Below are positions 25,051-29,601 of a stretch of DNA of 58,667 nt, in pieces. Source of the DNA: an uncultured Eubacteriales bacterium (lineage in GTDB: Bacteria > Bacillota > Clostridia > Peptostreptococcales > Anaerovoracaceae). The notes beneath the pieces are model-generated. The model saw only the letters and a list, made by a program, of their open reading frames with translations. It was not told where the DNA came from and searched no databases. How positions within the stretch are numbered: position 1 is the stretch's first letter; every line of letters starts with the position of its first letter. Location: positions 1 through 58,667 of the forward strand of contig CACYHR010000013.1 of assembly GCA_902774265.1 (NCBI GenBank). Direction: 5' to 3'. A program made the translations under genes and the position numbers.

Positions 25051-25098
25051 AAACAATATATTGACATGATATCTGCTGCTGAATACAATATGTGGTGT
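25051..25098 (+). promoter_or_regulatory. Pair of NrdR-like boxes upstream of nrdD
   Basis: Box 1 (25051-25066, AAACAATATATTGACA) and box 2 (25083-25098, ATACAATATGTGGTGT) match the NrdR consensus ACACWATATATWGTGT at 12 and 13 of 16 positions. Their starts are 32 bp apart, three helical turns, as known for NrdR operators. The boxes cover the -35 and -10 of the promoter below, which fits repression. No nrdR gene is in the window. Confidence 0.72.
25061..25089 (+). promoter_or_regulatory. Sigma-A-type promoter of nrdD
   Basis: TTGACA (25061-25066), 17-bp spacer, TACAAT (25084-25089). It overlaps both NrdR-like boxes. The 24924-25263 gap otherwise shows a TGTGGAAAA (a DnaA-box-like word) at 25131-25139. 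Confidence 0.75.
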
Positions 25099-25263: not shown

Positions 25264-27540
25264 ATGAAGACCATCATCAAGAGAGACGGTAAAGAAGTAC
25301 AGTTCGACGAGTCAAAGATATTCAACGCCATATATGCAGCCAACAAAGCTGTACAGGGCGAGAAGATGACCAGCATCGATTTTACATATCTGACTAAGAA
25401 GGTCGTAGAGAGACTGGACGGTGAGACATGCACAGTAGAGCAGGTACAGGATATCGTTGAGCAGATGCTCATCAGATATGACTATGAAAAGACTGCCAAG
25501 GCATATATTCTCTATCGTGCGGAGCACGCAAAGATCAGAGAAGCCGAGTCCGATCTGATGAATATCTACAACGAGCTTACATACTCATATTCAAAGGATG
25601 CCGATATCAAGAGAGAGAATGCCAACATCGACGGCGATACTTCTATGGGCACGATGCTCAAATACGGCTCCGAAGGCGCAAAGTATTTCGTGGACAATTA
25701 TGTTCTTCCTAAGGATATTGCAAAAGCTCATATCAACGGTGATATCCATATACACGATAAGGATTTCTATATGCTGACAGAGACCTGCTGTCAGATCGAT
25801 CTTATCAAACTGTTCAAGGACGGTTTCTGCACAGGTCACGGATATCTGAGAGAGCCGCAGTCCATCATGAGCTATGCTTCACTGGCATGTATCGCCATTC
25901 AGGCAAACCAGAACGAGATGCACGGCGGACAGTCTGTCCCGAACTTTGATTATTCGATGGCTCCCGGTGTTGCAAGGACATATATCAAGGAGTATTTCTC
26001 GGCTCTGACTGAGATCATAGCTGCGAAGCTGGATATCCATTATGATGATGCCAAGGCTTTGGCGGAGAAAATCAGAGTGGAAGCACCTGCCCCGACTATA
26101 AGCAACACAAAGACATATGGCGAAGAGCTCGGCAAGTGGTTCGACAGGACAGATAACACTTTCGGTGTTGACAAAGACATCCTGATCCATTGTAATGAGC
26201 AGGCGGGAGAAGCAGCGTGGGCCAGAACGGACAAGATGACCTATCAGGCAATGGAGGCTCTTATCCACAATCTCAATACCATGAACTCAAGAGCGGGCGC
26301 CCAGGTACCTTTCAGCTCAGTCAACTACGGTACTGATACGACTCCTGAGGGTCGCATGATAATAAAGAACCTGCTGCTGGCTACAGAGGCGGGCCTCGGA
26401 AACGGCGAAACACCTATATTCCCGGTGCAGATCTTCAAGGTAAAGGAAGGCGTCAACTTCAACAGCGGCGATCCTAACTACGATCTGTTCAAGCTGGCCG
26501 TAAGATGCAGTGCCAAGAGATTATTCCCGAACTTCAGCTTCCTTGATGCACCTTTCAACAAAACTTTCTACAGAGAAGGTGATTACAATTCTGAGGTTGC
26601 ATACATGGGATGCCGCACCAGAGTAATGGCTAACAACTACGATCCGACCAAGGCTGTGGTATGCGGCAGAGGAAACCTCTCGTTTACATCAATTAATCTG
26701 CCGAGACTCGGCATAGAGGCAAACAGGGATTTCGACGTATTCTATAAGAAACTGGACAATATGCTGGAGCTCGTATCGAGACAGCTGCTGCACAGATTCA
26801 AGATACAATGCACCAAGAGAGGCCGTAACTATCCGTTCCTGATGGGTCAGGGAATATGGATAGATTCCGACAATCTCGGTCCTGACGACAGTGTTGCTGA
26901 GATACTTAAACACGGTACTCTTTCGATAGGCTTTATCGGACTTGCTGAGACTATGAAGGCTCTTACGGGCAAACATCATGCCGAGGACGAGAATGTCAGG
27001 AAGCAAGCTTATGAGGTCGTAAAACACATGAGAGAGTTCTGCGACAAAAAGAGCGCTGAGACCGGTCTGAACTTTACACTGCTTGCAACACCTGCAGAAG
27101 GACTGTCCGGCAGATTCGTAAAAATAGACAGAGAAAAATACGGAAAGCTTGAGGGCATAACAGACAGGAATTACTACACCAATTCATTCCATGTCCCGGT
27201 TTATTATCCGATCGGAGCATTCGAAAAGCTGGAGATAGAGGCTCCTTATCACAATCTGACAAATGCGGGTCACATCAGCTATGTTGAGCTCGATGGTGAT
27301 ACGGCCAAGAATCCTGAGGCTTTCGAATCTATCATCAGATACATGAAGGAAGTAGGAATCGGATACGGTTCGGTCAACCATCCTGTAGACAGAGACCCTG
27401 TCTGCGGATATACAGGAGTGATAGATGACGTATGTCCGAGATGCGGAAGACGCGAAGGTGAACCGGTTACAATAGAGAGACTTAACGAGCTGAGAATGAG
27501 GTATCCAAGCGTTCCGGTACCATGCGACTGTAACCGCTAA
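25264..27540 (+). CDS. nrdD: Anaerobic (class III) ribonucleotide reductase catalytic chain lacking the glycyl-radical segment
   Basis: 758 residues from ATG 25264 behind AAAGGAAG. Residues 1-95 are an ATP-cone. The catalytic barrel includes the thiyl cysteine region YMGCRTRV (Cys450) and NLSFTSINLPRLG. The C-terminus has a zinc-type cluster of cysteines (Cys714, Cys724, Cys727, then CDC at 754-756). Normal NrdD then continues into the (R)(V/I)xGYL glycyl-radical loop. Here the chain stops after a 25-residue tail without it, and the loop is encoded by the separate gene at 27654. The enzyme reduces ribonucleotides to deoxyribonucleotides under anoxia and is activated by NrdG (29056). The split appears designed, since each part has its own ribosome site. 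Confidence 0.93.
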   Translation: MKTIIKRDGKEVQFDESKIFNAIYAANKAVQGEKMTSIDFTYLTKKVVERLDGETCTVEQVQDIVEQMLIRYDYEKTAKAYILYRAEHAKIREAESDLMNIYNELTYSYSKDADIKRENANIDGDTSMGTMLKYGSEGAKYFVDNYVLPKDIAKAHINGDIHIHDKDFYMLTETCCQIDLIKLFKDGFCTGHGYLREPQSIMSYASLACIAIQANQNEMHGGQSVPNFDYSMAPGVARTYIKEYFSALTEIIAAKLDIHYDDAKALAEKIRVEAPAPTISNTKTYGEELGKWFDRTDNTFGVDKDILIHCNEQAGEAAWARTDKMTYQAMEALIHNLNTMNSRAGAQVPFSSVNYGTDTTPEGRMIIKNLLLATEAGLGNGETPIFPVQIFKVKEGVNFNSGDPNYDLFKLAVRCSAKRLFPNFSFLDAPFNKTFYREGDYNSEVAYMGCRTRVMANNYDPTKAVVCGRGNLSFTSINLPRLGIEANRDFDVFYKKLDNMLELVSRQLLHRFKIQCTKRGRNYPFLMGQGIWIDSDNLGPDDSVAEILKHGTLSIGFIGLAETMKALTGKHHAEDENVRKQAYEVVKHMREFCDKKSAETGLNFTLLATPAEGLSGRFVKIDREKYGKLEGITDRNYYTNSFHVPVYYPIGAFEKLEIEAPYHNLTNAGHISYVELDGDTAKNPEAFESIIRYMKEVGIGYGSVNHPVDRDPVCGYTGVIDDVCPRCGRREGEPVTIERLNELRMRYPSVPVPCDCNR

Positions 27541-27541
27541 A

Positions 27542-27589
27542 ACACAATATACAGTATAGTACTGTAAAAGATACAACAATATACATTAT
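27542..27589 (+). promoter_or_regulatory. Second pair of NrdR-like boxes, upstream of the glycyl-radical gene
   Basis: ACACAATATACAGTAT (27542-27557) matches the NrdR consensus at 14 of 16 positions, and CAACAATATACATTAT (27574-27589) at 11 of 16. The starts are again exactly 32 bp apart. A perfect 6-3-6 palindrome (ACAGTA-TAG-TACTGT, 27551-27565) overlaps the first box. Confidence 0.65.
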
Positions 27590-27595
27590 GCAGGC

Positions 27596-27624
27596 TTCAC
27601 ATTGGAGCCTGCCGGATATATAAT
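27596..27624 (+). promoter_or_regulatory. Candidate promoter of the glycyl-radical gene, with hairpin
   Basis: TTCACA (27596-27601), 17-bp spacer, TATAAT (27619-27624). A 7-bp hairpin GCAGGCT/AGCCTGC (27590-27612) overlaps it and could act as a partial terminator or processing site for the nrdD transcript. Confidence 0.55.
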
Positions 27625-27653
27625 ACCCGTGGAGACAAATTGGAGGTAAAGAT

Positions 27654-27815
27654 ATGAACAACAATGTAGTAAAGAATGTAAACGGTCAGGTAGGTGAAGG
27701 TGTCGGATTCGAGAGAATCAGAAGAATCACAGGATATCTCGTAGGCACACTCGACAGATTCAACAACGGCAAGAGAGCCGAGGTTGAGGACAGAGTAAAA
27801 CACGGCCTGAAATAA
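27654..27815 (+). CDS. Separately encoded glycyl-radical domain of anaerobic ribonucleotide reductase
   Basis: A 53-residue gene from ATG 27654 behind TTGGAGG. Residues 20-41 (ERIRRITGYLVG then TLDRFNNGKRA) are the C-terminal radical loop of class III NrdD; Gly27 in ITGYL is the predicted radical glycine. The first 19 residues are polar and unrelated to NrdD, and the end (VEDRVKHGLK) matches the usual NrdD terminus. It has its own promoter, NrdR-like boxes and terminator. It most likely docks into the catalytic chain encoded upstream and is activated by NrdG. An alternative is a spare part that repairs an oxygen-cut enzyme, as YfiD/GrcA does for pyruvate formate-lyase; but here the main chain has no glycine loop of its own. 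Confidence 0.88.
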   Translation: MNNNVVKNVNGQVGEGVGFERIRRITGYLVGTLDRFNNGKRAEVEDRVKHGLK

Positions 27816-27858: not shown

Positions 27859-27893
27859 AAAATCGGATCAGCCCGCAAAGCCGATCCGGTTTT
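27859..27893 (+). terminator. Terminator after the glycyl-radical gene
   Basis: AAAATCGGATC pairs with GATCCGGTTTT (11 bp, one G-T pair), T-run included. Confidence 0.82.
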
Positions 27894-27977: not shown

Positions 27978-28865
27978 ATGCATGATATATGGAATCCATG
28001 GCACGGATGTGTCAAATGCAGCGAGGGCTGCAAAAATTGCTATATGTATTATCTCGACAGCATGAGGGATAATGACGGCTCCGAGATATACCTGACTTCC
28101 AATGCCCGGTATCCGCTCTCCAGAGACAGGATGGGAAGATACAAGATCAGGAGCGGCGAGAAGATCAGTGTGTGCATGACTTCGGACTTCTTTCTCGAGG
28201 AGGCTGATAAATGGAGAAGTGATGCGTGGAATATAATGCACATGCGCAGCGATGTCATTTTTATCCTGGTGACAAAGAGACCGCAGCGCATTGCTGAGTG
28301 CCTTCCGCCTGAATGGGGAGACGGATGGGAAAATATATTTCTGAATGTGACTGCTGAGAATCAGAGAAGAGCTGATGAGAGGATCCCCATACTGCTGGAC
28401 CTCCCTTTCAGACATAAGGGTGTTTATGTTGCGCCGATACTGGGACCTGTGAAGCTCGGCAGATATCTTGACAGCGGACTTATCGAACAGGTAGTGTGCG
28501 GAGGGGAAAATTACGGCGGCAGGCGGCCGTGCGATTTCGACTGGATCAGGTCGCTGCGGGCGGAATGCGAGTCAAGAGATATAACTTTCTGCTTCATGGA
28601 GACCGGAACCGTATTCATTAAGGATGGAAAAGAGTATGTATTGAACGGCAAGCGACTTCAGACGAGTCAGGCACTGAAATCAGGTATGAACTATCAGGGC
28701 AGACCGATGCGGTTTGAACTTGTCGACACATGGGGACTTCCCATTCCGGAAGAAAATCTGTATGTAAAGCGCTATTGCAGCAACTGCAGAGATTGCGCGA
28801 TGAAACTCATATGCAACGGCTGCAGCTTCTGCGGCAAATGCGGCGTAAAGCCGGAAAATCTTTGA
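27978..28865 (+). CDS. DUF5131 family Cys-rich protein (phage gp37/gp68-like)
   Basis: 295 residues from ATG 27978. The N-terminus reads WNPWHGC..CSEGCKNCYMYYLD with Cys11, Cys14, Cys18 and Cys21, a radical-SAM-like CxxxCxxC motif typical of DUF5131. VTAENQ, ILVTKRP and CGGENYGGRRPCDFDW also fit. The C-terminus adds a dense Cys cluster (YCSNCRDCAMKL then CNGCSFCGKCG) that could hold a second Fe-S or Zn site. The family often appears in phages and near defence or DNA-modification genes; its reaction is unsettled. Here it lies between the two nrdD pieces and nrdG, which suggests but does not prove a link to radical chemistry in nucleotide reduction. Confidence 0.85.
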   Translation: MHDIWNPWHGCVKCSEGCKNCYMYYLDSMRDNDGSEIYLTSNARYPLSRDRMGRYKIRSGEKISVCMTSDFFLEEADKWRSDAWNIMHMRSDVIFILVTKRPQRIAECLPPEWGDGWENIFLNVTAENQRRADERIPILLDLPFRHKGVYVAPILGPVKLGRYLDSGLIEQVVCGGENYGGRRPCDFDWIRSLRAECESRDITFCFMETGTVFIKDGKEYVLNGKRLQTSQALKSGMNYQGRPMRFELVDTWGLPIPEENLYVKRYCSNCRDCAMKLICNGCSFCGKCGVKPENL

Positions 28866-28982: not shown

Positions 28983-29055
28983 ACACATCGGAGTGATCGT
29001 TTCATACATATGTACGAAATCAGGTTTGCAGTTTATTTATTATCAGTATAGTGAT

Positions 29056-29601
29056 ATGGAAGAGAAAAGAACAGATCAGACATTGATAAGAGTGTGCGGG
29101 GTAGAACCTGAATCAATAGTGGACGGACCCGGATTCAGATATGTGCTTTTTGTGCAGGGCTGTACGCACAGATGTCACGGCTGCCACAACCCGGAATCCT
29201 GGGATAAGGATGGAGGGTTTACCATGACAGTTGATGATGTGCTGTCAGAGATAAAAGAAAATCCTCATCTCAGGGGAGTGACTTTTTCTGGCGGCGAGCC
29301 GTTCGAGCAGGTGCGTGCACTGAGGATACTGGGCAAGAGAATAAAGGAAGCAGGCCTTTCGCTTATGAGCTATTCGGGCTATACTCTTGAAGAGCTGCAG
29401 GACAGGCATGATGCGGAGACGGATAAGCTGCTGGGAATGCTGGATATACTCGTAGACGGCAGATATATCGAATCTCAGCGCAATCTTACACTGATCTACA
29501 GAGGATCTGAGAATCAGCGCGTCATAGATATGAACAGGACAAGAAGCGAAGGAAAGATAGTTCTTTATCATTCGGATTTTGATGAAGAAATAATAATATA
29601 G
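29056..29601 (+). CDS. nrdG: Anaerobic ribonucleotide reductase activating protein
   Basis: About 181 residues from ATG 29056; no good ribosome site is visible and a GTG at 28993 is in frame. It is a radical-SAM protein with CTHRCHGCHN (Cys36, Cys40, Cys43) and TFSGGEPFEQ, which bind the 4Fe-4S cluster and SAM. It makes the glycyl radical on NrdD, here presumably on Gly27 of the separate 53-residue protein. It lies after a terminator, so it has its own transcript start. Confidence 0.92.
   Translation: MEEKRTDQTLIRVCGVEPESIVDGPGFRYVLFVQGCTHRCHGCHNPESWDKDGGFTMTVDDVLSEIKENPHLRGVTFSGGEPFEQVRALRILGKRIKEAGLSLMSYSGYTLEELQDRHDAETDKLLGMLDILVDGRYIESQRNLTLIYRGSENQRVIDMNRTRSEGKIVLYHSDFDEEIII

Follow-up and report, generated by a model that had tools for sequence, protein, structure and literature searches.

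The 58,667-nucleotide contig CACYHR010000013.1 of an uncultured Eubacteriales bacterium (Anaerovoracaceae; assembly GCA_902774265.1), hereafter the window, very probably encodes an obligate two-chain class III ribonucleotide reductase (RNR), in which the NrdD main chain lacks the glycyl-radical loop and a separate protein of 53 amino acids (aa) carries it. This reading is based on the domain split, its conservation, purifying selection, the small gene's own regulatory sites, the pair being the sole RNR found, and the co-occurrence of loop-less main chains with standalone loops. A sequence-only reading of the window had described a loop-less NrdD of 758 residues with an ATP-cone and Cys450, and a loop with Gly27 located 113 bp downstream, all of which was confirmed by Pfam, NCBIfam and the alignment to the P. 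copri NrdD structure (8P23). The features concerned are:

25264 to 27540, plus strand: nrdD main chain, 758 aa (open reading frame (ORF), Pfam, NCBIfam, PDB alignment and AlphaFold2 (AF2) model)
27448 to 27537, plus strand: C-terminal tail past CPRCG (RREGEPVTIERLNELRMRYPSVPVPCDCNR), probably what is left, in diverged form, of the FERIRR stretch found ahead of the loop in fused NrdD
27654 to 27815, plus strand: glycyl-radical subunit, 53 aa, with the predicted radical Gly27 in RRITGYLVG (Pfam, NCBIfam and alignment to PDB 8P23)

The main chain matches positions 1–531 of the NRDD profile PF13597 (E 1.8e-190) and positions 2–711 of the 746 of NF005497 (1060 bits versus a cut-off of 764), and contains an ATP-cone (Pfam, E 1.4e-19). 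Cys450 is the cysteine of the MGCR finger loop; it aligns with MGCR in 8P23, 9D3X and T4 NrdD and is invariant across 25 aligned chains. The C-terminal cysteines noted in the sequence-only reading occupy three of the four zinc-site positions of P. copri NrdD; at the first position there is an Asp, which fused relatives have too. The AF2 model (mean predicted local distance difference test score, pLDDT, 81.7) shows a predicted class III RNR fold, with 8P2C as the top PDB match (E 2.3e-50). Judged by sequence and predicted fold, the chain has the barrel, the thiyl-radical cysteine and the zinc-site cysteines of a class III NrdD. The glycyl-radical loop, which defines the C-terminus of such chains, is absent from its 758 aa in both the Pfam and the 8P23 alignments.

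The small ORF, separated from nrdD by a gap of 113 bp, supplies the missing part. It matches positions 533–562 of PF13597 (E 2.8e-8; 33.3 bits versus a gathering score of 26.2) and positions 710–744 of the 746 of NF005497, the latter with a score far under that model's full-length cut-off. In the alignment to 8P23 the main chain extends up to residue 705 and the small ORF covers residues 707–738 (E 1.4e-7); PMC11226230 places the radical of P. copri NrdD on Gly711, within a radical domain spanning residues 676–739. Pfam, NCBIfam and the P. copri structure thus place the cut at one and the same point, so that the zinc-site part lies on the main chain and the radical loop with the C-terminal tail on the second protein.

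The arrangement is conserved in the genus. Of 47 genus genomes (that of the window included), 41 have a close NrdD and the small ORF side by side on the same strand (adjacency taken from coordinates), among them all 18 that reach 90% completeness with no more than 5% contamination; in 6 of the 41 the contig holds just part of the main chain. Named records of the pair-bearing type are mostly Mogibacterium sp. The small gene is under strong purifying selection: for the 42 codons surrounding Gly27, dN/dS has a median of 0.026 (571 pairs, 35 genus loci). A second, full-length nrdD in the genome had been named beforehand as an observation that would speak against the split. No second nrdD was found in the assembly (90.8% complete), and across the 47 genus genomes every radical-loop match lies in a frame of 107 aa or less. 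Class I/II RNR (PF02867) was detected in 2 of the 47, one of them as a partial match at a contig end; the split pair is therefore the only RNR found in most of the genus, including the genome of the window. One genome (G043, L281) has a full-length class I/II-type RNR match alongside a split NrdD.

The sequence-only reading had proposed a search for short loop ORFs beside loop-less nrdD genes, and such pairs were also found well beyond the genus. In a GTDB profile search, the best 80 of 589 loci comprised 53 split pairs, 9 fused genes and 18 standalone genes with no main chain in the locus; one of the 18 (L123) was counted as such, yet a loop-less chain of 750 aa was observed there. The query was biased towards standalone forms, so the shares should not be read as frequencies. 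Going by record titles, the split pairs belong to Bacillota (43), Fibrobacterota (3), Thermodesulfobacteriota (2), Mycoplasmatota (2) and Pseudomonadota (1), with 2 unassigned, and they include Lachnospiraceae, Butyricicoccus, Massiliimalia, Anaerotruncus, Erysipelotrichaceae, Fibrobacter, Desulfovibrio and Anaerobiospirillum. The split is found in many independent assemblies, including records titled as strains and not as metagenome-assembled genomes (Massiliimalia timonensis, L090; Bacterium 1XD42-1, L093). A tree of 84 NrdD cores, built by a quick method with the junction excluded, requires 10 changes between fused and split forms, at least 6 of them forced by well-supported branches; the changes are undirected. 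The split recurs in several phyla. A Desulfovibrio genome (L183, L197, L147) has two loop-less main chains on separate contigs, neither with an adjacent standalone gene, and a standalone gene at a third place; one small radical protein may serve both main chains.

In an even sample of 291 Clostridia genomes, a close NrdD (E up to about 1e-199 among the matches listed; second NrdD copies uncounted) is present in 71, of which 59 are fused (5 also with a standalone), 10 are loop-less with a standalone, and 2 have neither. The association is significant with the 2 odd genomes counted against it (Fisher P 3.7e-7), and the 10 loop-less main chains, all of them read, are complete, with a standalone loop in every one of these genomes. 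In family f113 all six genomes checked combine a loop-less main chain with a standalone of ~94–98 aa, the genes being neighbours in two genomes and on different contigs in the other four (in member G457 the standalone is known from the phylum-sample matches only), and in a phylum sample of 398 genomes a standalone frame shorter than 150 aa was counted by eye in at least 25. It is very unlikely that the small protein is only a spare part of the YfiD type, with the main chain working alone on a thiyl radical made otherwise. Spare parts are plausible in themselves, as fused NrdD with standalone copies exists elsewhere, and unusual non-glycine radical sites are reported among relatives of these enzymes (PMC11528403). 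However, no fused enzyme in need of repair was found in the genome of the window or in the genus, and the 10 out of 10 co-occurrence in the Clostridia sample also speaks against a dispensable part. We know of no class III RNR without any radical glycine.

The small gene has candidate regulatory sites of its own, and an activase gene lies further downstream:

25051 to 25098, plus strand: NrdR-type box pair before nrdD (25051–25066 and 25083–25098), score reached by 0 of 200 shuffles
27542 to 27591, plus strand: NrdR-type box pair before the small gene (27542–27557 and 27576–27591), score reached by 0 of 200 shuffles in the window
27596 to 27624, plus strand: sigma-70-like promoter TTCACA-17-TATAAT, 11 of 12 consensus bases
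27642 to 27646, plus strand: ribosome-binding site GGAGG of the small gene
27864 to 27888, strand unassigned: terminator-like hairpin past the small gene, listed by the scan on the minus strand only and followed on the plus strand by GTTTTAT
28993 to 29601, plus strand: nrdG, radical S-adenosylmethionine activase (TIGR02491, 145.6 bits; cut-off 126.1)

The boxes were scored against what we take to be the NrdR consensus; in a control stretch past the gene the box-pair score was reached by 11 of 200 shuffles, and an NrdR gene is present in the genome. A ribosome site, promoter, boxes and terminator had all been attributed to the small gene from the sequence. The GGAGG and the box pair hold up, whereas the promoter is weak alone (2 promoter-like sites found versus 1.4 expected by chance) and the hairpin carries the strand limit given above. 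The shuffle test of the pair before nrdD covered the window only. The intergenic pair was scored in 30 genus loci and reaches at most 5 of 100 shuffles in 19 and 7–13 in 8, while 3 (L004, L026, L030) have no pair; among 16 further loci (one of them, L088, of the genus type) it reaches at most 5 of 100 in 3. Separate regulation therefore looks like a trait of part of the genus and not of split loci generally. Between the small gene and nrdG, on the same strand, lies a DUF5131 (PF07505) gene at 27978–28865.

These sites also bear on the idea that both frames end up in one chain, joined at some stage before or after translation by frameshift, hopping, an intron, an intein or trans-splicing. Introns or inteins often account for split nrdD genes in phages (PMC3653736, PMC12363816); the breaks there are tied to introns, inteins or endonuclease genes, with splicing partly shown (PMC3653736, PMC12363816, PMC2988022). 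In the 113-bp gap there is no intron, intein or endonuclease insertion, and the small gene has its own ribosome site and box pair. The gap varies from 4 to 227 bp across loci (printed overlaps depend on the start codon chosen), and in seven genomes (G051, G355, G370, G495, G570, G647, G693) the standalone gene is on another contig. Moreover, joining would duplicate the FERIRR stretch, because both sides carry a version of it. We therefore regard joined frames as highly improbable.

Comparison across lineages suggests how the two-chain form may have arisen. Five NrdD states were observed (INTERMEDIATES), the first (a) being fused NrdD only. In state (b) a fused NrdD is accompanied by a standalone of ~98 aa elsewhere, as in five of six Ruminococcus-type genomes checked and in G189, G394 and G252; G049 and G055, of the same family as G051, also have both forms. 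In state (c) a standalone of 97–99 aa lies directly behind the fused gene (G205, G335), and in G335 the same 33 residues, from FERIRRITGYL to KHF, occur in the fused and the standalone copies. State (d) is a loop-less main chain with the standalone on another contig (G051, G355, G370, G495, four of six in f113, and the L155 genome, which is the sixth of the Ruminococcus-type genomes checked), and state (e), a main chain with an adjacent protein of ~50 aa, is that of the window. Three main chains of state (d) end in a recognizable stump: HFERIPRL (G355) stops about two residues before the glycine position, and SSERVARIKA (G370) and EFERIHRITE (G495) read as ending at the glycine position with Ala and Glu, respectively. 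In the ~98-aa standalone proteins the N-terminal part is modelled by AF2 as beta-alpha-beta-beta with pLDDT near 80. This part, ~50 residues long (L122:5848-6141 and relatives), has no Pfam match above cut-off, and a fold search with a 98-aa standalone (AF2 mean pLDDT 67.6) gave no PDB match at E ≤0.001; the weak matches, many of them ribosome hibernation factors, are non-significant (best 0.088) and are not used as evidence.

The tail of the window's main chain probably belongs to the same series. It had been described as a new 25-residue tail ending in CDC. The chain does end in CDCNR, and CDC is present in all 32 genus rows aligned (31 genomes) and missing from most split NrdDs outside the genus, which makes it a genus feature. 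Rather than being new, the tail itself probably derives from the FERIRR stretch in front of the loop and has since diverged: the pattern V-x-x-E-[KR]-L, exact or nearly so, occurs in 54 of 67 split tails, compared to a mean of 2.5 and a maximum of 6 in shuffles. A zinc-ligand swap, in which the Asp of DRDPVCGY would be linked to the CDC tail, was considered and rejected, since the same Asp occurs in fused relatives and CDC is mostly lacking in other split NrdDs.

Several observations weigh against an obligate two-chain enzyme or against this account of its tail. The motif is missing in 13 of the 67 split tails (in L142 and L195 only through a wrongly cut tail) and is also found in 16 of 25 fused tails, and the AF2 model, a monomer prediction, is uninformative on the tail (pLDDT <50 for residues 747–758). 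The pair is missing in 6 of 47 genus genomes, 4 of them without any NrdD match (all <90% complete) and 2 with a divergent NrdD only. The two Clostridia genomes with neither a fused loop nor a short standalone have one NrdD at a contig end and one partial NrdD, and a second NrdD-like gene in G314 has no loop match. Clear NrdR-type boxes between both genes are confined to part of the genus and rare outside it. Finally, the genomes surveyed are mostly metagenome assemblies, and the main-chain piece of G039 contains an internal TGA; these last two points would suit a decaying or misassembled nrdD. Such an origin is scarcely credible, given that 41 genus genomes and several phyla share the architecture, that dN/dS is 0.026 and that the pair is the only RNR found in the genome, in agreement with the earlier judgement that this is not a fresh nonsense mutation or frameshift.

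The closest parallels are YfiD/GrcA of E. coli and Y06I of phage T4. Like the small protein, they combine a glycyl-radical loop and the C-terminal helix of the partner with an extra N-terminal part, they duplicate the stretch before the loop, and they can be phage-borne (PMC8683613). The parallel to YfiD/GrcA drawn in the sequence-only reading is apt: the window encodes a small standalone protein with such a loop (53 aa, Gly27), and fused NrdD with standalone copies exists in other lineages. The partner of YfiD/GrcA is pyruvate formate-lyase (PFL), whereas here it is NrdD. No PFL-type radical domain (PF01228) was detected at E up to 1 in the window protein or up to 5 in eight relatives, which match PF13597 instead. 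An intact fused partner was found in other lineages but not in the genome of the window or its genus; unlike YfiD, the part would always be needed in split NrdDs, because the main chain has no loop, and mobile copies are common for the NrdD part, unlike for YfiD/GrcA. According to PMC8683613, YfiD duplicates a strand retained on cleaved PFL, rescue fails when this part of PFL is truncated, and the disordered N-terminus of YfiD is important when the radical is installed. By analogy, split main chains resemble a permanently cleaved enzyme, in that most keep a stump while the small chain has its own copy of the stump and an N-terminal extension.

Derivation of the two-chain NrdD from YfiD/GrcA-like spare parts is the best reading of these data. 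A copy of the nrdD 3′ end would have become a spare part, a stage still seen as fused plus standalone genes; the main chain would later have lost its own loop, giving a 'born-cleaved' enzyme that always needs the part, and this loss would have occurred several times, or reverted. In the proposed mechanism, the main chain, which ends before the radical loop, contributes its ATP-cone, its zinc-site cysteines and a barrel that houses the thiyl-radical Cys450. The 53-aa chain would dock its loop into the barrel beside Cys450, like Gly711 in P. copri NrdD. NrdG, the dedicated activase expected of a class III RNR and encoded at the same locus, would install the glycyl radical on Gly27, and Cys450 would take the radical over for catalysis; these steps we infer by homology. 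The small chain would be replaced after oxygen cuts it, and the most likely benefit is that the oxygen-destroyed part could be renewed for the cost of ~50 residues.

Among characterized enzymes, the NrdDs of P. copri (8P23), S. thermophilus (9D3X) and phage T4 (1H7A) share the barrel and the MGCR finger loop with the window; the ATP-cone region aligns in 8P23 and 9D3X, and the loop of 8P23 is nearly identical in sequence. In these three the radical glycine is on the main chain, whereas in the window it is on a second gene, and the first zinc-site cysteine is Asp, as in fused relatives. The class II RNR NrdJa/NrdJb of Pseudomonas aeruginosa also consists of two chains (PMC9669993, PMC4520616), but it is B12-dependent, is split elsewhere and has no glycyl radical. 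The two-chain NrdD thus fits both spare parts and class III RNRs yet fails one defining feature of each, since the radical is off the catalytic chain and no intact enzyme to repair was found. To our knowledge, the glycyl radical is on the catalytic chain in known enzymes, PFL spare parts being the validated exception. Andorfer et al. 2021 raise spare parts for other glycyl radical enzymes as a possibility (PMC8683613). In the open-access literature searched, we found neither a two-chain class III RNR nor a spare part for NrdD described earlier.

The small gene is also dispersed. Extra copies number 25 across 15 genus genomes, and 17 of the 23 examined sit among conjugation genes, one of them in the genome of the window (G000:C43). 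Typically the copy is preceded by VirD4 and a TrbC-like gene and immediately followed by a TrbL/VirB6-like gene, and PrgI and VirB4 are close by. Matches to relaxase, VirD4, PrgI and the TraG P-loop exceed the Pfam cut-offs, whereas those to TrbC and TrbL/VirB6 fall below them. The other 6 of the 23 lie outside conjugation genes, one of them (L075:5401-5565) just upstream of nrdD in G046, where nrdD is flanked by two radical-subunit genes. The dispersed copy L087 comes from Candidatus Crickella equi, whose genome holds the pair too. That these copies are relics was rejected: their median dN/dS is 0.12 (44 usable pairs, 16 copies; a rough value, with synonymous sites near saturation), so their codons are still constrained.

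Phage copies come from IMG/VR, where the best 80 of 356 relatives comprised 72 standalone genes with no NrdD main chain in the locus, 3 without a clear start or frame, 3 with a loop-less main chain too and 2 fused genes. A whole-record search found an NrdD match in none of 32 standalone records (frame unclear in L241), which may be fragments, and in all three records with a main chain. Ten gene families recur next to the phage copies; 8 have PHROG matches, for example to tail fibre, baseplate, endolysin, integrase, reverse transcriptase and methyltransferase, and 2 have none. For the 10 standalone proteins tested, PHROG matches were, weak hits aside, confined to the C-terminal end of NrdD families. 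The type that nine phage copies come closest to is that of Anaerobiospirillum (mostly TRLHA...RRVTGYL), and their 86–94% identity suggests exchange with hosts. GenBank phages and PLSDB plasmids contain no place covering 80% of the small protein; their annotated matches are nearly all NrdD genes, apart from one 'hypothetical protein' of Eggerthella phage EL753P1 (H15), and records H1–H3 are unannotated. Virus record L279 has a standalone radical protein; at a different place and on the opposite strand it also has an NrdD main chain, which appears as two matches, one with an internal stop.

Phage and conjugative-element copies would presumably keep host dNTP synthesis running. With about an even chance of being right, we propose that standalone NrdD radical subunits form a mobile, exchangeable protein-cofactor pool, in which a repair part repeatedly became obligate, so that dNTP synthesis would depend on a protein of ~50 residues, and by which phages and conjugative elements would switch on, sustain or take over the host's only RNR during replication or transfer. 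The mobile copies could instead be decoys, or poison subunits that shut down the dNTP synthesis of competitors and do not serve the host NrdD, which would suit their cargo positions without nrdD. This is unlikely: the radical loop is nearly unchanged in most copies (exceptions are ITGFL in L234 and RWITGYL in L256) and some copies closely resemble the host-type protein, which fits working parts better than decoys.

These results provide candidate spare parts for NrdD, together with lineages in which such a part appears to have become a required subunit of the only RNR found. They make testable whether a glycyl radical domain can act as a detachable subunit and lower the cost of oxygen damage, how NrdG recognizes a substrate of 50 residues, and why the part is found on phages and conjugative elements. 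As far as sequences can tell, many gut anaerobes appear to keep an essential, oxygen-fragile RNR radical on a separate protein of ~50 residues, and short ORFs encoding this domain, which are easily overlooked or annotated under the large enzyme's name, may be essential. In a second NrdD clade, with the loop ITGYLS (L362, L363, L364, L365, L366, L351–L354), fused NrdD occurs with standalone proteins of 87–124 aa that have a similar loop, in all four genomes checked (G478, G627, G651, G723); candidate spare parts therefore exist outside the window's NrdD clade as well. Lastly, a frame of at least 223 aa at L335:1166-1837, open at the contig edge, ends in a radical loop and has an upstream part that does not resemble NrdD.

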